From a virus: 37,168 nt of DNA. The stretch is taken from the IMG/VR virus record IMGVR_UViG_3300042563_000114, positions 1 through 37,168 of that record; one strand, written 5' to 3'. The notes under the pieces are model-generated. The model did not search any database. It was given only the letters and a program-made list of their open reading frames with translations, and was not told the DNA's origin. Position numbers and translations under genes: made by a program. Each line of letters opens with the position of its first letter. The first letter of the stretch is position 1. Below are positions 27,137 through 33,746 of the stretch, piece by piece.

Positions 27137-27388
27137 TTAAAAAGGCGCATCTTCATCTACGGGCAAACCGTGATATTGCGTTTTAACATTGTCACGTGGC
27201 TTTGGGTCATTGAGGTATGCCCAACCATCCCAACCGCCTTTGACAAGCGGCATAACATCTAACTTCAGCATATCGCCGTTTTTAGTGTCAATGATAGAGC
27301 CAATTGTTTGGTATCGATTTTTCTGTTGACCGTCTTTGTTTACGTACGTGCCTTGAATGACACTAATTTCTTTAAGTATTTTTGACAT
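27137..27388 (-). CDS. Small recombination-module protein, possible ssDNA-binding
   Basis: 83 residues: a beta-rich start (KILKEISVIQGTYVNKDGQQKNRYQTIGSI), a middle KLDVMPLVKGGWDGWAYLNDP and an acidic C-terminus (LPVDEDAPF). A small beta barrel with an acidic tail that ends in F is the arrangement of single-strand binding proteins, whose tail binds partners. The gene overlaps the YqaJ exonuclease gene by 17 bases. I infer help in strand annealing, but did not match an SSB family. Confidence 0.5.
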   Translation of the reverse strand: MSKILKEISVIQGTYVNKDGQQKNRYQTIGSIIDTKNGDMLKLDVMPLVKGGWDGWAYLNDPKPRDNVKTQYHGLPVDEDAPF

Positions 27389-28010
27389 TGTTTAATCTTT
27401 CATTCAGTTTACTAATTTTGGCATCAAGTTCGGCTAAGAACTTAATCACTTCTTCTTTAAGCATTGCCACATATTCCGCATCAAATTCAACGCGCTTAAC
27501 AAACATTTGTAACCCGCTTGGTAGGCGTGGGTCAAACGATACGAAATCTGCCCATATGCGACCCGTGCATGACATTTGCCATTGCATTTGGGTTATGTAC
27601 TTTGTAGGTACTTGTTCGCTAATCAATGTATCAATGTGCGTTGCCGTGTTAGGGCATTTAATTTCCAATAAGCCAAATAGCCCTATCAAGCCATCAGGCG
27701 ATGCCCCTGCGCGTTCAATTGTTGGATGGGCGATATACCCTACTTCATCAACCAAAACATCGGCTAGGGACTCATAAGCGGCGCGGGCAAGCGGTTCGGT
27801 TTCCGTACCCCATTGCATAGCCGCATTTGTGTACGATTCTGCAACCGTATTTGTCATCCGTTCGCAAATCAATTGCGCCATGTAGTTATCGCGTGATGCC
27901 GAATAGCCGCTTTTGGTTTTGGCAATTACATCAGCAACGCGGGATGCCGTGACATTACCCAACCGTGCCGCCCACCATTCGGGCGAATATTGTTCCATTG
28001 TTTCAATCAT
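27372..28010 (-). CDS. YqaJ-like viral recombinase exonuclease
   Basis: 212 residues. It should degrade one strand of double-stranded DNA ends to leave single strands for the annealing protein. Family marks: WWAARLGNVTASRVADVIAK at the start, GTETEPLARAAYESL, the PD-(D/E)XK core AGASPDGLIG then GLLEIKCPN (D, E and K as catalytic residues), and TQMQWQMSCTGRIWADFVS. The C-terminus is a short helical tail (LDAKISKLNERLNN). Coupled by ATGA to the ERF gene, giving the classical exonuclease plus annealase pair. Confidence 0.92.
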   Translation of the reverse strand: MIETMEQYSPEWWAARLGNVTASRVADVIAKTKSGYSASRDNYMAQLICERMTNTVAESYTNAAMQWGTETEPLARAAYESLADVLVDEVGYIAHPTIERAGASPDGLIGLFGLLEIKCPNTATHIDTLISEQVPTKYITQMQWQMSCTGRIWADFVSFDPRLPSGLQMFVKRVEFDAEYVAMLKEEVIKFLAELDAKISKLNERLNNVKNT

Positions 28011-28552
28011 AGTTTTGCCTTTACTTTATCTTTGGCGGCGATAACTTTCTTTTGCCAATCAGGATTGCCATTACAAGCGGTATAGGCGGCTTTGTAGGCG
28101 TTCTTTAAACTATCTTGGTCGGTTGATGCCTCAATATCGGCTAAGTGGTCTATAAGGATTGTTTCATCAACTGTAGTTTTACGCACCGCGGCATTTCCAT
28201 CGTCATCTTCAGGGGCTTGCCCCGTAGCCGCCATCAATGAAGCCCTGCGGATATAAGTTAAGCACGACATAAAACCCTGCGGGTCATGCTTAGGTGCGGG
28301 AAAGAATAATTTGCCGCAATCTAACCGTTCGCCCGATTCATGCAAAAAACTTGTTTCACAAATGATGCCATCAATATGTTCAGAAGTGGTTTGAAACAAG
28401 AAAATGCCGTTGTTGTTTAGCGCGTCTATAACCGCTTCAACGCAAGAAGCAAGGTCAGCGTAGCGGGATTTAAAATGCGGGTTTGTAGCGGTCTTTAAAG
28501 CAGGGCCAAACGCCTTTTGTGCCTTTACCAATGCGGTTGCTAAGTTTTTCAT
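28007..28552 (-). CDS. ERF-family single-strand annealing protein
   Basis: 181 residues. It should coat single strands made by the exonuclease and anneal them, for recombination and genome circularisation. The conserved N-terminal block AFGPALKTATNPHFKSRYADLASCVEAV and the later QGFMSCLTYIRRASLMAATGQAPEDDDGN match the ERF superfamily (NP.F.SKYA.L, then T.ARRYAL...L.G....DDDG). Shorter than P22 Erf and without its separate C-terminal part. Coupled by ATGA at both ends. Confidence 0.9.
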   Translation of the reverse strand: MKNLATALVKAQKAFGPALKTATNPHFKSRYADLASCVEAVIDALNNNGIFLFQTTSEHIDGIICETSFLHESGERLDCGKLFFPAPKHDPQGFMSCLTYIRRASLMAATGQAPEDDDGNAAVRKTTVDETILIDHLADIEASTDQDSLKNAYKAAYTACNGNPDWQKKVIAAKDKVKAKL

Positions 28553-29062: not shown

Positions 29063-29082
29063 TTTGGTTTCTTTCTAAAAGA

Positions 29083-29097
29083 CCCTAGAAGTTAGGG
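29083..29097 (-). other. Leader hairpin, cassette 1
   Basis: CCCTA pairs with TAGGG around a five-base loop. On the coding strand it is preceded by ATG-C and followed by GTCTTTTAGAAAG, the same frame of bases as in cassettes 2, 3 and 4, but the stem bases differ between copies while pairing is kept. It lies in the untranslated leader just before the ribosome site. Confidence 0.6.
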
Positions 29098-29106
29098 CAT
29101 GGATGA

Positions 29107-29134
29107 ATTATAAGCCAACTAATACACAGGTCAA
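29107..29134 (-). promoter_or_regulatory. Early leftward promoter 1 with overlapping dyad
   Basis: On the minus strand TTGACC and TATAAT are 16 bases apart, 11 of 12 box positions matching consensus. The dyad element ATAAGCCAACTAAT (29110-29123 on the plus strand) overlaps the -10 box and spacer, where a bound repressor would block polymerase. It drives the 73-residue early gene and the recombination genes. Confidence 0.8.
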
Positions 29135-29144
29135 CAATTATTTA

Positions 29145-29390
29145 CTAAGTATTTTCCCTAGTGTTGTTTTTTCTCAGTTTTAAAGTTTCTTTAAGACAAA
29201 TTGCGGCTTGTTCTTGCGTAAACAATCCGCGTTTTTCAAGTTGGTTAATCCCTGCTTTGATATGCGACAACGCATAATTTTTTGGGTTGCCTATAACGCG
29301 GCAAATGTTATCCCACAATTGTTCAACTGTCATATTGTTCCAAAAGTAGTTATCAGGAACTACGCGGGCATGGGTTGTTTTGTCGTACAT
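29145..29390 (-). CDS. Small early protein, helical
   Basis: 81 residues, starting after AGGGGG at good spacing. Contains MTVEQLWDNICRVIGNPKNY and INQLEKRGLFTQEQAAICLKETLKLRKN, two helical pairs with charged faces. No membrane segment, metal motif or DNA-binding pattern is convincing. It ends 11 bases before promoter 1 of the next unit. Probably an early host-interaction or regulatory protein, but the role is unknown. Confidence 0.7.
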   Translation of the reverse strand: MYDKTTHARVVPDNYFWNNMTVEQLWDNICRVIGNPKNYALSHIKAGINQLEKRGLFTQEQAAICLKETLKLRKNNTRENT

Positions 29391-29403
29391 TGCAACCCCC
29401 TAA

Positions 29404-29646
29404 TTAAGCCAACAAAGCCGCCAAATGTTCAGGCGTACCCTCACGGTACACGCCGCCAACAAACGCGTAGTAGCGAACGCCTTTGGCATTGATAAGAACA
29501 CCAACCGCGGGGTGCAAATCTGTACGGGGGGTGAACTTGGCAACCTTGGCGGCATGGGCGGCATTGGCTTTGGCAAAGCGCATTTCACTTGCATCGCGTT
29601 CGTTGCGTTTTGTTTCTACTGCTTGTTTAAATGTTAAGTTTGTCAT
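29404..29646 (-). CDS. Small early protein with helical N-terminus and beta C-terminus
   Basis: 80 residues: MTNLTFKQAVETKRNERDAS, an Ala-rich helix (FAKANAAHAAKVAKFTP) and VGVLINAKGVRYYAFVGGVYREGTPEHLAALLA. The last part looks like two strands and a helix. It follows cassette 2 with AGAAAG as ribosome site, and shares only MTNL with the 73-residue gene. The next gene starts 13 bases later. No family recognised. Confidence 0.7.
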   Translation of the reverse strand: MTNLTFKQAVETKRNERDASEMRFAKANAAHAAKVAKFTPRTDLHPAVGVLINAKGVRYYAFVGGVYREGTPEHLAALLA

Positions 29647-29666
29647 TTGCTTTGCTTTCTAAAAGA

Positions 29667-29683
29667 CCGCAAGATGTTTGCGG
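29667..29683 (-). other. Leader hairpin, cassette 2
   Basis: CCGCAA and TTGCGG form six pairs around a five-base loop. The flanks (ATG just before, GTCTTTTAGAAAGC just after) are conserved with the other cassettes while the stem bases are different, which argues that the structure itself matters. Confidence 0.65.
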
Positions 29684-29692
29684 CATGGGTAA

Positions 29693-29720
29693 ATTATAAG
29701 CCAACTAATACGGGTGTCAA
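29693..29720 (-). promoter_or_regulatory. Early leftward promoter 2, consensus sigma-70
   Basis: Perfect TTGACA and TATAAT boxes separated by 16 bases on the minus strand. The dyad ATAAGCCAACTAAT (29696-29709 plus strand) overlaps as in promoter 1. A 23-base block upstream of the -35 box (29735-29757) is repeated exactly at 30125-30147 upstream of promoter 3. Strong early expression under repressor control is expected. Confidence 0.85.
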
Positions 29721-29734
29721 CAACTTTTTAAAAT

Positions 29735-29757
29735 TATTTTGTAGGTAGTTTCCCTAA
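29735..29757. repeat. Direct repeat upstream of early promoters
   Basis: These 23 bases, with the core GTAGGTAGTTTCCC, occur again unchanged at 30125-30147; a shortened relative (ATTTTCCCTAG) stands at 29151-29161 upstream of promoter 1. In each case the block lies just behind the -35 box, as an activator site or UP element would. The whole cassettes look duplicated. Confidence 0.75.
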
Positions 29758-29758
29758 C

Positions 29759-29775
29759 GGGGGGACTAGCCCCCA
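29759..29775 (+). terminator. Second G5/C5 hairpin
   Basis: GGGGG-ACTAG-CCCCC, five strong pairs with a five-base loop. It is followed on the plus strand by ATTTGTTT. As with the copy near 28825 it stands just after the stop of a leftward gene and lacks a T-run in the leftward direction. It separates the 87-residue early gene from promoter 2. Confidence 0.5.
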
Positions 29776-29780
29776 TTTGT

Positions 29781-30044
29781 TTAAACTAAATCCAATTCTT
29801 GAATGTCTTGACCTGATGCCAACTTACCATTGGCTTGAATACTATATTCAATTTGCTCAAGTGTTGGTTTGTAACAATCTCCGTAATCTGTCCAATGACC
29901 ACATTGGCGTTCACCCTCAAACCAAATGACGTAAATGTTAAAACCAATTATTTTTGCTATTGTGTAAACTTGAGCATCTAGGTGTTCACCGCGGACAATC
30001 AATTGACCAATATAAATTTGGTTAAGTGTTAGGCGTTTTGCCAT
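29781..30044 (-). CDS. First leftward early protein
   Basis: 87 residues: MAKRLTLNQIYIGQLIVRGE, then AQVYTIAKIIGFNIYVIWFEGERQCGHWTDYGDCYKPTLEQIEY. Two cysteines, a histidine and several aromatics, with a beta-rich middle that resembles a small SH3-like barrel; no membrane helix. GGAGAAAG precedes the start. It is the first gene after promoter 3, so among the first made after infection. No family recognised. Confidence 0.7.
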   Translation of the reverse strand: MAKRLTLNQIYIGQLIVRGEHLDAQVYTIAKIIGFNIYVIWFEGERQCGHWTDYGDCYKPTLEQIEYSIQANGKLASGQDIQELDLV

Positions 30045-30063
30045 TTTGCTTTCTCCTAAAAGA

Positions 30064-30083
30064 CCCCATGCGAATTGCTAGGG
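30064..30083 (-). other. Leader hairpin, cassette 3
   Basis: On the coding strand CCCTAGC pairs with GC-A-TGGGG around AATTC: seven pairs including one G-T wobble, with one bulged A. Same flanks as cassettes 1, 2 and 4 (ATG before, GTCTTTTAG after), different stem bases. Confidence 0.55.
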
Positions 30084-30092
30084 CATGATGTA

Positions 30093-30120
30093 ATTATAAG
30101 CCAACTAATATATTTGTCAA
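30093..30120 (-). promoter_or_regulatory. Early leftward promoter 3, consensus sigma-70
   Basis: TTGACA and TATAAT on the minus strand with a 16-base spacer, and the dyad ATAAGCCAACTAAT at 30096-30109. It is the first leftward promoter of the divergent control region and would serve the role of a lambda PL. Confidence 0.85.
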
Positions 30121-30156
30121 TAACTATTTTGTAGGTAGTTTCCCTAAATTGTTGTT

Positions 30157-30170
30157 ATAAGACAACTAAT
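30157..30170. promoter_or_regulatory. Operator-like dyad without a matching promoter
   Basis: ATAAGACAACTAAT differs by one base from the three promoter-overlapping copies. No -35 box stands at the right distance on either strand, so it is best seen as an extra operator between the leftward and rightward start sites, allowing cooperative binding. Confidence 0.6.
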
Positions 30171-30189
30171 ATATTAGGGTTTGTCCCTA

Positions 30190-30218
30190 TGTACTTATCG
30201 TATAAGTTGGCTTATAAT
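30190..30218 (+). promoter_or_regulatory. Rightward promoter with symmetric operator before the Cro-like gene
   Basis: A perfect -10 TATAAT (30213-30218) stands six bases before the ATG of the Cro-like gene. The -35 region (TGTACT, 17 bases away) is poor, so activation or a weak basal level is expected. The dyad here is the most symmetric copy, ATAAG-TTGG-CTTAT (30202-30215), and overlaps the -10 box. Transcription would begin very near the start codon, giving a leaderless or almost leaderless message. Confidence 0.6.
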
Positions 30219-30223
30219 AAGGT

Positions 30224-30376
30224 ATGACAAAAAAAGAATTGTTAACCAAGGTACGCAACCAAACCGAATTAGCGGAATTGCTAGGCATCAGGCAATCCGC
30301 TATTAGCCAATGGAAAGAAATACCCAAGGCTAGGCTTTGGCAATTAAAGTTACTCAAACCTAAGTGGTTCAAATGA
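30224..30376 (+). CDS. Cro-like helix-turn-helix regulator, 50 residues
   Basis: MTKKELLTKVRNQTELAELLGIRQSAISQWKEIPKARLWQL and a basic aromatic end (KPKWFK). The segment NQTELAELLGIRQSAISQWK is a clean Cro/YdaS-type helix-turn-helix: Q and A of helix 2, the G turn, and recognition helix RQSAISQW. Lambda Cro is only slightly larger. It sits at the rightward side of the divergent early promoters and is the natural candidate to bind the ATAAG-N4-CTWAT dyads, including the one over its own promoter. It overlaps the next gene as ATGA. No larger CI-type partner is found. Confidence 0.82.
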   Translation: MTKKELLTKVRNQTELAELLGIRQSAISQWKEIPKARLWQLKLLKPKWFK

Positions 30377-30570
30377 CAAAAATAGAAAAATACCTACATC
30401 ACAAATCTTTGATGATGGAACACTTAGCATTTGCGTATGCCAATCAATCGATGCAAGATTCTTTGTACCAACTGATTTGCTACCATTTGCACAAAGATTA
30501 CACGCAAGGTTATTATTATTTTATGACTTATCAGGAACGCAAAGATTTGCAAACGATGATGGTTCTTTGA
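30373..30570 (+). CDS. Small protein after the Cro-like gene
   Basis: 65 residues from the ATG coupled to the regulator stop (ATGA). MTKIEKYLHHKSLMMEHLAF, then LYQLICYHLHKDYTQGYYYFMTYQERKD. Rich in Tyr, His and Leu; helical throughout, without a clear membrane segment. It may be a partner of the regulator. The -35 box of the small RNA promoter lies inside its last codons. Confidence 0.6.
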   Translation: MTKIEKYLHHKSLMMEHLAFAYANQSMQDSLYQLICYHLHKDYTQGYYYFMTYQERKDLQTMMVL

Positions 30571-30576
30571 TACAAT
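30547..30576 (+). promoter_or_regulatory. Promoter for the structured small RNA
   Basis: TTGCAA and TACAAT separated by 18 bases, 4 and 5 matches to the consensus boxes. The predicted start is near 30583, a few bases before the first paired element of the small RNA. The -35 box is in the end of the preceding gene. Confidence 0.6.
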
Positions 30577-30582
30577 AATTTA

Positions 30583-30690
30583 AAAGACGCTTGGCGGCGT
30601 TTCACAGTAGGGTTACACATGAAGTCTGCTGGTACTGTGCCAGTCCGCCAACATCCGCAAGGGTGAGACTTCAGGTGTAGCCCTTTTTTT
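30583..30690 (+). ncRNA. Structured small RNA resembling C4 antisense RNA
   Basis: A three-way structure is visible. The closing stem pairs 30609-30618 with 30675-30684 and 30620-30627 with 30666-30673 (18 pairs, one A-G mismatch). Inside are CTGGT-ACTGT-GCCAG (30629-30643) and CATCC-GCAA-GGGTG with a GNRA loop (30652-30665). A T-run after the closing stem makes it a terminator. The single strand CCGCCAA and the loop ACTGTG are complementary to TTGGCGG and CACAGT just upstream (30591-30597, 30603-30608), with the same five-base spacing in both. Shape, order and motifs recall the C4 antisense RNA of phages P1/P7. The family name is from memory. A 15-codon reading frame lies inside. Confidence 0.68.
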
Positions 30691-30700
30691 TAGGCTAAAA

Positions 30701-31177
30701 ATGAAAGAAAATCTTTCACATGAATTACTTACAGAAAATGTTTTTTATGATTCTGTAACTGGAACTTTTGTTTGGAACAAAAAAGGCAAAAACAGAATTG
30801 TTGGCAAAAGTATAGGAAGAAAACATTGCAAAGGTTATTTGCAAGTTTGGTTTAACGGATACTTTTACATGGCTCATAGACTTGCTTGGTTTTATGTTTA
30901 TAAAAAATGGCCTACTCAATATCTTGACCATATAAATGAAAACAAACTTGATAACAGAATTGAAAATTTAAGAGATGTTTCTCATTCTGTAAATTTGGCA
31001 AATCAAAAAAATCCACAAAAAAACAATACTTCCGGTTTCAGAGGAGTTTCATACAAAAAAAGAATTTCTAAATTTCATGCTCAAATTTTTGTTAACAAAA
31101 AATACAATTCTTTGGGATATTTTGATAGTGCAGAAGAAGCGCATAAGGCTTACTTAAAATTTAAAGAGCAAATCTGA
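30701..31177 (+). CDS. HNH homing endonuclease with AP2 domain
   Basis: 158 residues. The HNH part reads AHRLAWFYVYKKWPTQYLDHINENKLDNRIENLRDVS, with the D-H-I-N.....N.-N-L core of the HNH_3 type; the C-terminal AP2 domain (SGFRGVSYKKRISKFHAQIF, then YFDSAEEAHKAYLKF) binds DNA. Such free-standing enzymes spread by cutting related phages that lack them. The gene is clearly more AT-rich than its neighbours, with long A-runs, and lies directly behind the terminator of the small RNA, so it looks recently inserted. Its stop overlaps the replication gene start (TGATG). Confidence 0.9.
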   Translation: MKENLSHELLTENVFYDSVTGTFVWNKKGKNRIVGKSIGRKHCKGYLQVWFNGYFYMAHRLAWFYVYKKWPTQYLDHINENKLDNRIENLRDVSHSVNLANQKNPQKNNTSGFRGVSYKKRISKFHAQIFVNKKYNSLGYFDSAEEAHKAYLKFKEQI

Positions 31178-31929
31178 TGCACTACTACCAATTTCATATT
31201 GGCGACTACATAAGCCATACAAGGCATCTTTCTTTGATGGAAGATTTAGCCTATAGGCGGTTACTTGATTTCTATTTTTTGCATGAACAAGCAATTAAAC
31301 ATCGGGATGCCGCCCGACAAATTGGGATGCGCGAACATGAAGAAGATGTAATGACCGTGCTAAACGAATTCTTTATTTCTACGGAAGATGGGTTTGTTAA
31401 CCCCCGTGCGGATAAAGAAATTAAACAGTACAAAGAATTTTCAGAAGCGGGTAAACGTGGGGCGGCTAAGAGGTGGGGAACACCCCCTAATGGGGAGGCT
31501 AGTAGCCCCCCTAATGCTACCCCAATAGCAACCAATAACCATAAACCAATAACCAATAACCATAAGAAAGAACAACGCGGCTCACGCCTCGCCAATGATT
31601 TGTTTTTTCCAAAAGATTGGTGCGATTTTTTAGTTGAACAACGCCCCGAACTAAACGCACAAAAAACCTTTGACCAATTTAAAGATTATTGGATTTCACA
31701 GGCAGGGCAAAAGGGCGTTAAGTTGGATTGGTTTGCAACATGGCGCAATTGGGTAAGAAGCACAAACGCACCCAAACAAAACCATGTTGATATAGCCCGC
31801 GTAACCGTGCCAATGGACAATCGGCCCGACCCCGCGTTAGAAAAAATTAAAGAAGATTCTTTACGCGCCGTACCGCCATCATTGGAAGTATTAGCAAAGA
31901 TGGCAGCATTGCGTAAAGTAAATATATGA
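31177..31929 (+). CDS. Replication protein with DUF1376 (YdaU-like) domain
   Basis: 250 residues. The opening YYQFHIGDYISHTRHLSLMEDLAYRRLLDFYFLHEQ is the hallmark of DUF1376, found in phage replication initiation proteins. The N-terminal 90 residues are winged-helix like; a Pro/Asn-rich linker (about 100-130) follows, then a second part (LFFPKDWCDFLVEQRPELN, DYWISQAGQKGVKLDWFATWRNWVR) typical of the replisome-loading end of such proteins. It probably binds the phage origin and recruits host replication enzymes. It overlaps the methyltransferase start as ATGA. An origin could lie inside the gene, possibly in the ACCAATAACC repeats near 31530-31560. Confidence 0.8.
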   Translation: MHYYQFHIGDYISHTRHLSLMEDLAYRRLLDFYFLHEQAIKHRDAARQIGMREHEEDVMTVLNEFFISTEDGFVNPRADKEIKQYKEFSEAGKRGAAKRWGTPPNGEASSPPNATPIATNNHKPITNNHKKEQRGSRLANDLFFPKDWCDFLVEQRPELNAQKTFDQFKDYWISQAGQKGVKLDWFATWRNWVRSTNAPKQNHVDIARVTVPMDNRPDPALEKIKEDSLRAVPPSLEVLAKMAALRKVNI

Positions 31930-32696
31930 ACAAGGAGAATTTAAATGAGTTGGCTCTTTTCGCGGGTGCTGGTGGAGGAATTCTTGGGGGAAAACTTCTT
32001 GGATGGCGAACAGTTTGCGCCGTTGAATGGGAACAGTATCCCGCAAGCGTATTGTGCGCCCGACAAAATGACGGACTTCTCCCGCCTTTCCCAGTTTGGG
32101 ATGACGTACAAACCTTTGACGGAAAACCGTGGCGAGGAATTGTTGATGTTGTATCGGGGGGCTTTCCATGCCAAGATTTGTCAGCAGGAGGAGGAAGGGC
32201 GGGACTTGATGGCGAACGAAGTGGATTATGGAAAGAGATGGTCAGGATTGTTGGCGAGGTTAGACCAAGATTTGTGTTTGTGGAAAATTCCCCAATGCTC
32301 GTTAATAACGGACTCGACCGAGTGCTTACAGACCTTTCCAAATTGGGGTTCGATGCAAAATGGGGCATTGTGGGAGGCGATGCCGTTGGTGCGCCCCATA
32401 GAAGGGAAAGATTTTGGTTGGTTGCCAACGCCCATAGCCACAGATTACATGAACGGGCAAGTAAACGGGATAACTTACACAGGCAAAAGATTTGTGAGAA
32501 CAAGCAAAAAAACTGGAACGGAGTTTGGCGCGAAACTGACAAGTGCTTATCGTTTGATGACTGGAAAGCGTTTGCCCGCAAGTTTTACGGAATGGATGAT
32601 GGGATGGCCTCAAGAATGGACAGAGTTAAAGCCTGTGGAAACGGGCAAATTCCACAAGTGGCAGCAACTGCATGGAGAATGTTAAGTGACACATGA
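31926..32696 (+). CDS. Cytosine-5 DNA methyltransferase
   Basis: 256 residues, short for the family but with the key motifs: I (LALFAGAGGGILGG, residues 9-22, S-adenosylmethionine binding), IV (SGGFPCQDLS, catalytic C82), VI (FVFVENSP, E120-N121), VIII (APHRRERFWLVA) and X (CGNGQIPQVAATAW near residue 238). The target recognition part is small. The enzyme should methylate cytosine in phage DNA to evade host restriction. The start ATG is coupled to the previous stop but has no ribosome site; AAGGAG just inside is better placed for the other frame. A second long frame covers nearly the whole gene. Confidence 0.92.
   Translation: MNKENLNELALFAGAGGGILGGKLLGWRTVCAVEWEQYPASVLCARQNDGLLPPFPVWDDVQTFDGKPWRGIVDVVSGGFPCQDLSAGGGRAGLDGERSGLWKEMVRIVGEVRPRFVFVENSPMLVNNGLDRVLTDLSKLGFDAKWGIVGGDAVGAPHRRERFWLVANAHSHRLHERASKRDNLHRQKICENKQKNWNGVWRETDKCLSFDDWKAFARKFYGMDDGMASRMDRVKACGNGQIPQVAATAWRMLSDT
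31945..32685 (+). CDS. Overprinted reading frame within the methyltransferase gene
   Basis: A 246-codon frame, +1 relative to the methyltransferase and covering almost all of it. AAGGAG lies seven bases before its ATG, the best ribosome site in this neighbourhood, and its stop is immediately followed by the GTG of the next gene (TAAGTG). The product is protein-like: it contains FGMTYKPLTENRGEELLM, WKIPQCSL, FPNWGSMQNG, WLPTPIATDY and a Trp-rich end (FTEWMMGWPQEWTELKP, ETGKFHKWQQLHG). From memory, proteins with such WPTP and MGWP..W motifs are annotated in other phages near methyltransferases. Function unknown. Caution: a minus-strand frame here is also long. Confidence 0.55.
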   Translation: MSWLFSRVLVEEFLGENFLDGEQFAPLNGNSIPQAYCAPDKMTDFSRLSQFGMTYKPLTENRGEELLMLYRGAFHAKICQQEEEGRDLMANEVDYGKRWSGLLARLDQDLCLWKIPQCSLITDSTECLQTFPNWGSMQNGALWEAMPLVRPIEGKDFGWLPTPIATDYMNGQVNGITYTGKRFVRTSKKTGTEFGAKLTSAYRLMTGKRLPASFTEWMMGWPQEWTELKPVETGKFHKWQQLHGEC

Positions 32697-32808
32697 AATG
32701 GCGATGCGAATATTGGACAGGGTGCGCGATGGGGTTAGTTACCCACAATGGGTAATCCGTAAAGCCTTGGAACTAACTGGCGACATTGATGGACATGGAA
32801 CACTTTAA
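32686..32808 (+). CDS. Small protein, 40 residues, GTG start
   Basis: (V/M)THEMAMRILDRVRDGVSY then PQWVIRKALELTGDIDGHGTL. GGAG stands eight bases before the GTG, which follows directly on the stop of the overprinted frame. The pattern of an N-terminal helix, PxxxIxxALxxTGD and a short end resembles small phage proteins with an ALxxTGDL ending. No enzymatic motif. It overlaps the following gene. Confidence 0.6.
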   Translation: MTHEMAMRILDRVRDGVSYPQWVIRKALELTGDIDGHGTL

Positions 32809-33001
32809 GGATTGCGAAGCGCGGGAATGGGTTGCCCGTTTTCGTAAAAAACAAATGGAAGAAGGTAGAGGGGAAGCGGTCGAATGGTGGGCAAAGATTA
32901 TTAAAGACATTGCAACCAAACGCGGGCAAGCCGCCGCTGATGAATTAAAGCAAAGAATGAATACAGTAAAGGATAAAAATGCGATACGCCGCAAGGGTTG
33001 A
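32789..33001 (+). CDS. Small charged helical protein
   Basis: 70 residues from the ATG at 32789; the next ATG six bases later is an equal choice. MDMEHFKDCEAREWVARFRKK, then GEAVEWWAKIIKDIATKRGQAAADELKQRMN. Highly charged, all helical, with the KRG..AA..L pattern seen in a small phage protein family of unknown role. It overlaps both neighbours, consistent with coupling. The last 23 bases overlap the nuclease gene. Confidence 0.7.
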   Translation: MDMEHFKDCEAREWVARFRKKQMEEGRGEAVEWWAKIIKDIATKRGQAAADELKQRMNTVKDKNAIRRKG

Positions 33002-33242
33002 TGCAAACCAAACACAAATCGTTAGTGCCTTACGCGCCGCGGGTGCATCAGTATGGATTATTGGCTTACCTGTTGACTTGTTGGTTGGCTATCACGGTCA
33101 CACATTCTTAGTTGAAATTAAAAGCACCAATAAAGCCCGTTTGACGGGGTTACAAGCCGACTTCTTTGAAACTTGGCACGGTGGGACACTTTGCCGCATC
33201 GATAGCCCTGAAGCCGCACTACGAATGATTGGAGTTATCTAA
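32979..33242 (+). CDS. VRR-NUC-like PD-(D/E)XK nuclease
   Basis: 87 residues, the size of small phage VRR-NUC proteins. RVDANQTQIVSALRAAGASVWIIGLPVDLLVGYHGHTFLVEIKST carries the core: Q for helix 1, then GLPVDLLVG (catalytic D) and FLVEIK (E and K). LTGLQADFFETWHGGTLCRIDS completes it with the conserved Q and the last strand. Such enzymes cut branched or modified DNA and are common in phage replication modules. One base links it with the next gene. Confidence 0.8.
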   Translation: MRYAARVDANQTQIVSALRAAGASVWIIGLPVDLLVGYHGHTFLVEIKSTNKARLTGLQADFFETWHGGTLCRIDSPEAALRMIGVI

Positions 33243-33574
33243 TGTCAATACCTTACAAAGCGATTGATTACATCATCCAAAACGCACCAAAATTTGCCGC
33301 GGCAAAAGGTCAACGGGTGTACTTGGAAAACTTTTTACGCACAAAAAAGGCGTTGCTGATGAAAGATGCTATGCAAGCGGGTTTTGAAAGTGCCGCCGCA
33401 CAAGAACGCGAAGCCTACGCGCATCCTGAATATCAAGAATTGTTAAAAGGTTTAGCCGCGGCTACGGAAACGGAAGAAACCCTAAAGTTTATGCTTATTG
33501 CGGCACAATTAAAATCGGAAATATGGCGCACCGAATCGGCTAATGAACGAAGTGGCATAAAAGCAACTGAGTAA
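33242..33574 (+). CDS. Conserved phage protein with helical pattern
   Basis: 110 residues. RVYLENFLRTKKALLMKDAMQAG, then AAAQEREAYAHPEYQELLKGL and EETLKFMLIAAQLKSEIWR make a protein of several helices. I recall a similar small protein in other phages (QEREAYAHPEYxxLLxGL) next to VRR-NUC genes, function unknown. It ends the first part of the rightward operon; promoter 4 follows. Confidence 0.75.
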   Translation: MSIPYKAIDYIIQNAPKFAAAKGQRVYLENFLRTKKALLMKDAMQAGFESAAAQEREAYAHPEYQELLKGLAAATETEETLKFMLIAAQLKSEIWRTESANERSGIKATE

Positions 33575-33582
33575 ACAATTTG

Positions 33583-33612
33583 TTGAAACACGGGTATTAG
33601 TAATCTTATAAT
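33583..33612 (+). promoter_or_regulatory. Early rightward promoter 4 with dyad
   Basis: TTGAAA and TATAAT are separated by 18 bases on the plus strand, -10 perfect. ATTAG-TAAT-CTTAT (33596-33609), a diverged form of the early dyad, overlaps the -10 box in the same register as in promoters 1-3. It would add transcription for the distal early genes. Confidence 0.75.
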
Positions 33613-33621
33613 TTAACTATG

Positions 33622-33635
33622 CCGTTACATCACGG
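33622..33635 (+). other. Leader hairpin, cassette 4
   Basis: CCGT-TACATC-ACGG. Flanks ATG before and GTCTTTTAGAAAGC after are the same as in cassettes 1-3, with a fourth set of stem bases. The AGAAAG serves as ribosome site for the 30-residue gene. Confidence 0.6.
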
Positions 33636-33653
33636 TCTTTTAGAAAGCAAACA

Positions 33654-33746
33654 ATGTGGCCCTTTCCCCCGTTTCCAAACCCAAAAGATAAGGGGCGTAA
33701 AGCCCCCAAGTTCAACCCTGATAACTTTGAGGATTCGCCCGTATGA
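33654..33746 (+). CDS. Small proline-rich peptide, 30 residues
   Basis: MWPFPPFPNPKDKGRKAPKF then [10 protein letters not shown]. It follows promoter 4 and its leader directly with AGAAAG at proper spacing, and overlaps the next start as ATGA, so it is the first product of that message. Proline- and aromatic-rich, no membrane segment. It could be a functional peptide or a leader setting translation of the next gene. Confidence 0.6.
   Translation: MWPFPPFPNPKDKGRKAPKFNPDNFEDSPV

Follow-up and report, generated by a model that had tools for sequence, protein, structure and literature searches.

Record IMGVR_UViG_3300042563_000114 of the IMG/VR virus collection was analysed over positions 1–37,168, that is, over all of its 37,168 bases (hereafter the window). 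It contains four dispersed cassettes, C1–C4, in which a near-consensus promoter is followed at a fixed distance by a short hairpin whose bases change while its pairing is retained, both within this genome and among its relatives. The hairpin also survives where the operator in the promoter and its regulator, a small Cro-like protein, are absent together. From this arrangement we infer the transcription start site, the binding of the Cro-like protein and the protection of the mRNA. The chances appear to us about even (roughly 0.5) that the hairpins act as generic 5'-terminal stem-loops which protect early mRNAs and keep the ribosome site open, within movable cassettes that combine two controls.

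Covariation and position of the leader hairpins

The cassettes lie near 30120 (C1), 29720 (C2) and 29134 (C3) on the minus strand and at 33583–33656 (C4) on the plus strand (Table 1). Direct reading of the sense strand shows the same order in each: the TATAAT of the promoter is followed after six bases by ATGCC, and then come the hairpin, TCTTTTAG, a purine ribosome site and the start codon. Their promoters are the four best promoter matches in the window, which has 14 in total, fewer than the shuffle mean of 21.4. As the sequence-only reading had proposed, all four have near-consensus boxes (11 or 12 of 12 consensus bases) and an overlapping dyad, here ATWAG-N4-CTWAT, and the four different stems that it listed were recovered by direct reading. 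The string GTCTTTTAGAAAG is exact in three cassettes and off by 2 bases at 30052–30064. Sigma70 promoters normally start transcription seven bases past the -10 box; in all four cassettes that position is occupied by the A of the leader ATG, with a pyrimidine before it. The same reading had described a leader of fixed frame, with the ATG as a constant part, and here it did not hold. The frames opened by this ATG read AUG-CCC-UAG in C1 and AUG-CCC-UAA in C3; that of C2 has 19 codons and is not the frame of the gene, that of C4 has 47, and no shared peptide is encoded. Since the frames are unalike and the upstream AUG is not invariant (relatives also show ACG, ACC or AUC there), a leader peptide was ruled out.

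In shuffles of the same letters, the chance of obtaining as many contiguous outer pairs was 0.008, 0.0007, 0.003 and 0.011 for the four cassettes, the loops of which vary (ACTTC, ACATC, AATTC). The strong evidence for the hairpin is comparative, and its weight lies in the relatives, which are metagenome records, some of them partial. Viral loci matching the Cro-like protein numbered 42; a scan for the cassette pattern gave 24 stretches, one for the operator–promoter alone gave 43, and one for cores gave at least 93, many of them due to chance. The 80 non-Cro stretches likewise include chance promoter matches. By eye, 37 leaders were gathered, excluding groups B and C as well as leaders with another beginning, such as L189, L203, L041 and one in L050; 21 of the 37 entered an alignment from which near-duplicates and internal-loop types were omitted. 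In this alignment 83 of 83 cells pair and all four pairs are changed on both sides, while shifting the partner by one column reduces pairing to 58%. The cassette-pattern scan required ATGCC and GTCTTTTAG, so that pairs 1–2 were partly selected in its loci. A covariance model built from the 21 leaders recovered all four window cassettes (E 1.8e-8 to 3.9e-6; next window match, E 0.14) and gave one to seven matches per record at E ≤ 0.01 in L004, L008, L009, L020, L022, L015, L014, L018, L048 and L051, with none at this threshold in four further records (L029, L026, L041 and L097).

The cleanest test is provided by scans of IMG/VR that were blind to the stem. All 37 matches (26 stretches, 9 stem types) were paired along the whole of the shorter arm, as were 18 of 18 in a distant group, where the open pairs include a double change from ATCGC/GCGAT to ATCAC/GTGAT; many of these sequences are related and do not represent 55 independent events. 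L051 and L367 have the same downstream gene and stems that differ solely by paired changes (CCCCGA/TTGGGG versus TTCCAA/TTGGAA). The motif search in related phages that had been suggested from the sequence alone yielded cassettes in the relatives' records, with no stem-breaking change among the stem-blind matches, and the proposed selection for leader structure is borne out by the alignment and by both scans. Among the listed matches of a scan for GGTCTTTTAGAAAG only, nearly all of the 108 distinct contexts examined look like chance, the cassette or its hairpin being found by reading in L154, L160, L180 and L183; further inverted repeats flagged in that scan also look like chance and were rejected.

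More distant phages have the same layout with unrelated stems. Where Cro is ~64% identical, the leader starts with AUCCCGC and forms a two-step hairpin; where it is ~56% identical, the hairpin begins at the predicted first base. Together with the ACG, ACC and AUC leaders, this means that the 5' AUG is not a constant part and that the overhang is 0–3 bases long. Two members of the 56% group (L231, L237) have a second small hairpin after the first, ACCC-AAACA-GGGT and ACCT-CAACA-AGGT, respectively, which seems to covary. Another phage type (L204, L207 and four more contigs) has the same operator–promoter string, with a hairpin, CCGAGG-TAGAT-CCTCGG, positioned after AGAAAGG and not before it.

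In a spacing test anchored on the stem, with both distances left open, 72 distinct contexts were compared. The stem follows the -10 box after exactly 9 bases in 66 of them (range 8–16), whereas its distance to the start codon varies from 14 to 37; the stem is thus tied to the predicted beginning of the transcript and would belong to the 5' end of the mRNA. A Shine-Dalgarno-like string is present within 20 nucleotides (nt) in 71 of the contexts, and 48 have an upstream TAGGGAAA-TACCTA-like stretch (two mismatches allowed). The 85 cassettes with an open frame stand before 24 gene clusters, with different stems within one gene family (clusters 3, 4, 9 and 11) and one stem before different gene families (clusters 4, 5, 11 and 12). 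The cassette thus appears best explained as a portable, movable expression unit. Stems within a genome differ in four of four cassettes in the window and six of six on one contig. No stem occurs twice among 99 within-contig pairs (6.2 expected by dealing) or among the 59 pairs of leftward cassettes (4.5 expected; 18 of 5000 deals as low), for which 20 of the 31 contigs were typed, each with two or more such cassettes. When operon order was controlled for, 477 of 5000 deals were as low; stems track operon position, and a rule that genomes never repeat a stem is not claimed.

The Cro-like regulator and its exchange

The dyad ATWAG-N4-CTWAT occurs at seven places in the window, six of them in early promoter regions (Table 1), as dispersed operators do, and one stray (2236–2249). 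The 50-residue protein that opens the rightward gene set matches the Pfam family P22_Cro (PF14549) with 35.6 bits against a cut-off of 30.2, and the family profile in turn matches the P22 Cro structure 1rzs (E 1.2e-8). The window protein therefore falls by profile into the family of P22 Cro, from which its C-terminal part is divergent. The core of P22 operators is AAG-N4-CTT; the dyads fit a P22-type Cro, and binding of the protein to them is predicted. All 35 Cro genes examined have a -10-like hexamer (at least four of six letters, the best one taken) that ends 5–7 bases before the ATG; for 18 of them, all from the close group, the hexamer is TATAAT without mismatch and the distance is 5 bases. 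Because of this spacing the Cro mRNA is predicted to be leaderless and to lack the hairpin. No CI-type partner was recognised among the proteins checked. A further dyad, TAGGG-TTTGT-CCCTA, lies at 30173–30187 between the divergent promoters, and a TAGGG/CCCTA-like dyad is found at the equivalent place in L033–L039.

At least seven of the eight operator letters are present in 79 of 87 distinct cassettes. The remaining eight lie on L051, L053, L059, L065, L154, L160, L183 and L227, and the Cro profile search found no Cro in any of the eight such records searched (L048 counted in, the L227 record lying outside the search). In Cro's slot there is another regulator of 59–64 amino acids, weakly YdaS-like (22.0 and 28.8 bits, cut-off 30) and with marginal similarity to the window Cro (36% over 50 positions, E 5e-4 in a single comparison). 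It is present in nine of the 16 records searched, all of the low-operator kind, and in none of the seven Cro records. Its ATG lies ~6 nt after a -10-like hexamer, so that its mRNA, too, is predicted to be leaderless. The leftward promoters of all nine contigs with the exchange have no more than six of the eight operator letters, yet the hairpin leader is kept in nine of nine; in L051 and the L048 record the CTTA half remains alone, overlapping the -10 box, plus chance letters. Since the hairpin is kept where Cro and the leftward operator are absent, the DNA-level control and the RNA hairpin are separable.

The plus-strand site TATTAGTAATCTTATAAT is present in the window, which has Cro, and also in L048, L051, L053 and L059, in which Cro was not found. 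The role of C4 as a Cro operator is doubtful because the site is unchanged in these contigs, and it may be no Cro site at all. The sequence-only reading had assigned all four cassettes to one common DNA-binding regulator, a small protein setting an early regulon with a shared RNA-level control. The regulator is supported by the P22_Cro match and by the absence of the leftward operator where Cro is missing; C4 may not follow the scheme, and the RNA element is not tied to Cro.

Function of the leader hairpin

According to the explanation that we favour, a strong sigma70 promoter would carry a TWAG-N4-CTTA operator between its -35 and -10 boxes, through which the P22-type Cro-like protein is predicted to block RNA polymerase and close the early promoters jointly. 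The regulator would also control itself, its leaderless mRNA being under the same operator. The predicted start of transcription is the A seven bases past the -10 box; the mRNA would then begin with A(U)G and, after 0–3 unpaired nucleotides, form a short stem-loop with largely free letters and conserved pairing. Most likely, this terminal stem-loop bars RppH and RNase E from the 5' end, which would make early mRNAs longer-lived, and would leave the U-rich stretch and the Shine-Dalgarno site behind it single-stranded for ribosomes. Both enzymes depend on 5' ends that are single-stranded, and structure at the 5' end stabilises mRNA (PMC3997798); RppH needs two unpaired nucleotides and prefers three or more (PMC10667835). 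A 5'-terminal stem-loop fits the observations because the letters are free, the place is fixed, the overhang is short and the ribosome site is open. Somewhat less assured, a little short of even odds, is the broader proposal of a general anti-decay device: an RNA 'cap' of nearly free sequence that moves together with early promoters, comes to stand before new genes and outlasts the exchange of repressor and operator, the leaderless mRNA of the regulator being without it.

Several points weigh against protection by the stem-loop. Two or three unpaired 5' bases may still admit RppH, and the RppH/RNase E decay route may not be that of the host. The first two pairs are CC/GG in 36 of the 37 collected leaders, partly through selection by the search pattern, and given this near-constancy the sequence of the stem may matter too. 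Energy alone is not rare, since a downstream fold of ≤ -5.0 kcal/mol is also reached at 18 of the window's 145 other -10-like sites, and the C4 stem is short (four pairs, -2.6 kcal/mol alone).

The main rival, unlikely in our judgement, is a structural insulator: the hairpin would fold the first transcribed bases upon themselves, sparing the ribosome site and equalising translation rates, with mRNA stability a secondary effect. The free letters and fixed shape of the stem, the U-rich and purine-rich ribosome site directly behind it and its occurrence before 24 gene clusters would all be expected of an insulator, but a position tied to the promoter and not to the start codon suits a 5'-end function better; insulation and mRNA protection may both hold. 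Distinctly less probable is control of translation or decay of all cassette genes by a phage or host RNA-binding protein that reads the hairpin. The several copies per genome would then constitute a post-transcriptional regulon; however, stem and loop both vary within one genome, so that recognition of shape would be required, and no candidate protein was seen.

Ranking marginally lower again is promoter-proximal transcription control, with the hairpin and TCTTTT acting as a weak terminator or pause site, or as a put-like antiterminator. A hairpin followed by a U-rich run resembles an attenuator, and in HK022 the structured putL RNA has a comparable place immediately behind an early promoter (PMC9378689). 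The put RNAs described there are ~70 nt long with two stem-loops, whereas the window has single stem-loops of 14–20 nt and the close-group leaders are of 14–24 nt with one stem-loop; the decay of the U run among relatives (TCTTAAAG, TCTATAAG, ACTACTAG) speaks against attenuation. We consider it improbable that the hairpin presents the 5'-terminal AUG for the recruitment of ribosomes, on the pattern of ptrB in E. coli: ribosomes can bind to AUGs of this kind, and the downstream gene can be affected (PMC4965119), and one is present in the four window leaders and most close relatives, but ACG, ACC or AUC replaces it in otherwise intact cassettes. Least credible is a second DNA operator formed by the hairpin arms, for although the dyad adjoins the promoter, different stems coexist in one genome and their changes are symmetric, which a sequence-specific binder would hardly tolerate.

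Neighbouring features and related systems

The leftward early genes include those for an Erf-like annealing protein and a YqaJ-type exonuclease, and the rightward genes one for a DUF1376 primosomal-type protein (Table 1).

Table 1. Coordinates of the cassettes, predicted operators, regulators and neighbouring genes (window positions unless a contig is named).
Feature	Position	Strand	Remarks
C1 promoter	30093..30120	minus	TTGACA-16 nt-TATAAT; 12/12 consensus bases
C1 leader	30056..30086	minus	Predicted start A 30086, AUG, hairpin 30083-30064 (CCCTAGC...GCATGGGG), TCTTTTAG; covariance model E 3.9e-6 and fold
C1 gene	29781-30044	minus	Downstream of C1 leader
C2 promoter	29693..29720	minus	TTGACA-16 nt-TATAAT; 12/12 consensus bases
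C2 leader	29659..29686	minus	AUG, hairpin 29683-29667 (CCGCAA/TTGCGG), TCTTTTAG; covariance model E 1.8e-8
C2 gene	29404-29646	minus	Downstream of C2 leader
C3 promoter	29107..29134	minus	TTGACC-16 nt-TATAAT; 11/12 consensus bases
C3 leader	29075..29100	minus	AUG, hairpin 29097-29083 (CCCTA/TAGGG), TCTTTTAG; covariance model E 1.2e-7
C3 gene	28841-29062	minus	Downstream of C3 leader
C4 promoter	33583..33612	plus	TTGAAA-18 nt-TATAAT; 11/12 consensus bases
C4 leader	33619..33643	plus	AUG, hairpin 33622-33635 (CCGT/ACGG), TCTTTTAG; covariance model E 1.3e-7
C4 gene	from 33654	plus	30 amino acids; short gene conserved in 9 cassettes of gene cluster 1
Operator in C1	30096..30109		ATWAG-N4-CTWAT (predicted)
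Operator in C2	29696..29709		ATWAG-N4-CTWAT (predicted)
Operator in C3	29110..29123		ATWAG-N4-CTWAT (predicted)
Operator-like site in C4, doubtful	33596..33609		ATWAG-N4-CTWAT; same sequence in contigs in which Cro was not found
Predicted operator over promoter of Cro-like gene	30202..30215		Perfect ATAAG-N4-CTTAT, just upstream of the gene
Further predicted operator between divergent promoters	30157..30170		ATWAG-N4-CTWAT
Cro-like regulator	30224..30376	plus	50 amino acids; ATG 5 nt past TATAAT, mRNA predicted leaderless
Other regulator, example loci	L053:5461-5640, L065:5638-5829	minus	Also in seven more records
Erf-like annealing protein	28007-28552	minus	Among leftward early genes
YqaJ-type exonuclease	27372-28010	minus	Among leftward early genes
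DUF1376 primosomal-type protein	31177-31929	plus	Among rightward genes

A second structured RNA of ~105 nt is apparent on the plus strand at 30585–30687, with a promoter-like hexamer upstream, a P1 hairpin, crossing helices and a terminator-like end; the fold of 30580–30690 is far more stable than those of shuffles (z -4.7), and covariation among the phage contigs is strong. A pattern scan of IMG/VR for its core returned at least 119 stretches and at least 124 matches, including at least 95 distinct forms that have a TTGGCGG loop and sufficient flanking sequence; three listed matches lack the loop. Among the matches listed, P1 is fully paired in 95 of 95 forms, P3 in 92 and P2 in 84 (27 stem types; no form has more than one mismatch). 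For P2 and P3 the best-matching arms were taken, a choice that favours pairing. All 95 forms have a -10-like hexamer, with up to two mismatches, immediately upstream. The RNA looks pseudoknotted because P2 crosses P3 and TTGGCGG can pair with a conserved CCGCCAA. Its end is a U run, which in many cases directly precedes a gene starting MHYYQF, MKIKNW or MRIKNW. Rfam 15 gave no match at the gathering threshold in the window or in eight loci with other members, and the RNA is possibly a new phage family located before replication genes. Between it and these genes lies an endonuclease-like open reading frame (30701–31177, plus strand). Parts of its DNA share 80% identity with phage HK022 and 74% with homing endonuclease genes found in enterobacterial phages, pointing to recent acquisition.

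The collections searched yielded no cultured phage that carries the cassette. The terminase shares 60.6% identity with its counterpart in Methylophilaceae phage P19250A, in the genome of which no such cassette was found by reading. Meaningful matches were lacking for C3 cassette DNA in phage records, for C1 cassette DNA in plasmids and for the C2 gene product in phages. Nor was a cassette found in the chosen early stretches read of three phages with related genes, two Manatee Spring phages and one Pseudomonas phage. A scan of genomes with the Cro profile gave nine loci, the best being an alphaproteobacterial metagenome-assembled genome (49%). No published description of the cassette was found in the literature outside subscription papers and preprints.

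Several known systems have parts of this design. The PeSL (promoter early stem-loop) elements of T4-type phages, known to us through a citing paper (PMC4503421), are likewise repeated units of early promoter and stem-loop beside changing gene sets. Their stem-loop is called a terminator in a cited title, whereas here the mRNA made from the promoter is predicted to open with it, and the genome is not of T4 type but a 37-kb record whose terminase has its best match in a 38.7-kb Methylophilaceae phage. The SAS and ESAS of cluster K mycobacteriophages (PMC3203893) also combine a repeated ribosome-site motif with an upstream inverted repeat before different genes; however, the ESAS repeats are imperfect, of 17 bp, with a subcluster consensus, whereas the stem letters here vary within a genome at a fixed distance from a sigma70 promoter, and the SAS motif, GGGATAGGAGCCC, differs by reading from TCTTTTAG(A)GAAAG.

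Dispersed phage operators include the CIR sites of phiC31 and the c1 sites of phage P1. Mycobacteriophage stoperators (PMC9283540) belong to the same class, in which one regulator serves many genome sites, as is predicted here, but in the present case each site is part of a promoter to which a hairpin leader is attached. With regard to the RNA, ompA of E. coli is one mRNA with a stabilising 5'-terminal stem-loop. Others are papA and bla with an added hairpin (PMC3997798). As predicted for the cassettes, the stem-loop stands at the 5' end with an open ribosome site behind it; those cases are single host genes, whereas here one repeated, covarying and movable unit would have this stabilising role.

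Post-transcriptional design is seldom so plain to see in small phage genomes. The natural compensating changes in the stems and the exchange of the regulator make the two layers testable apart. If the hairpin does guard early mRNA, it would constitute a compact, gene-independent stabilising leader, and the way in which phages handle host mRNA decay during the first minutes of infection would become testable.

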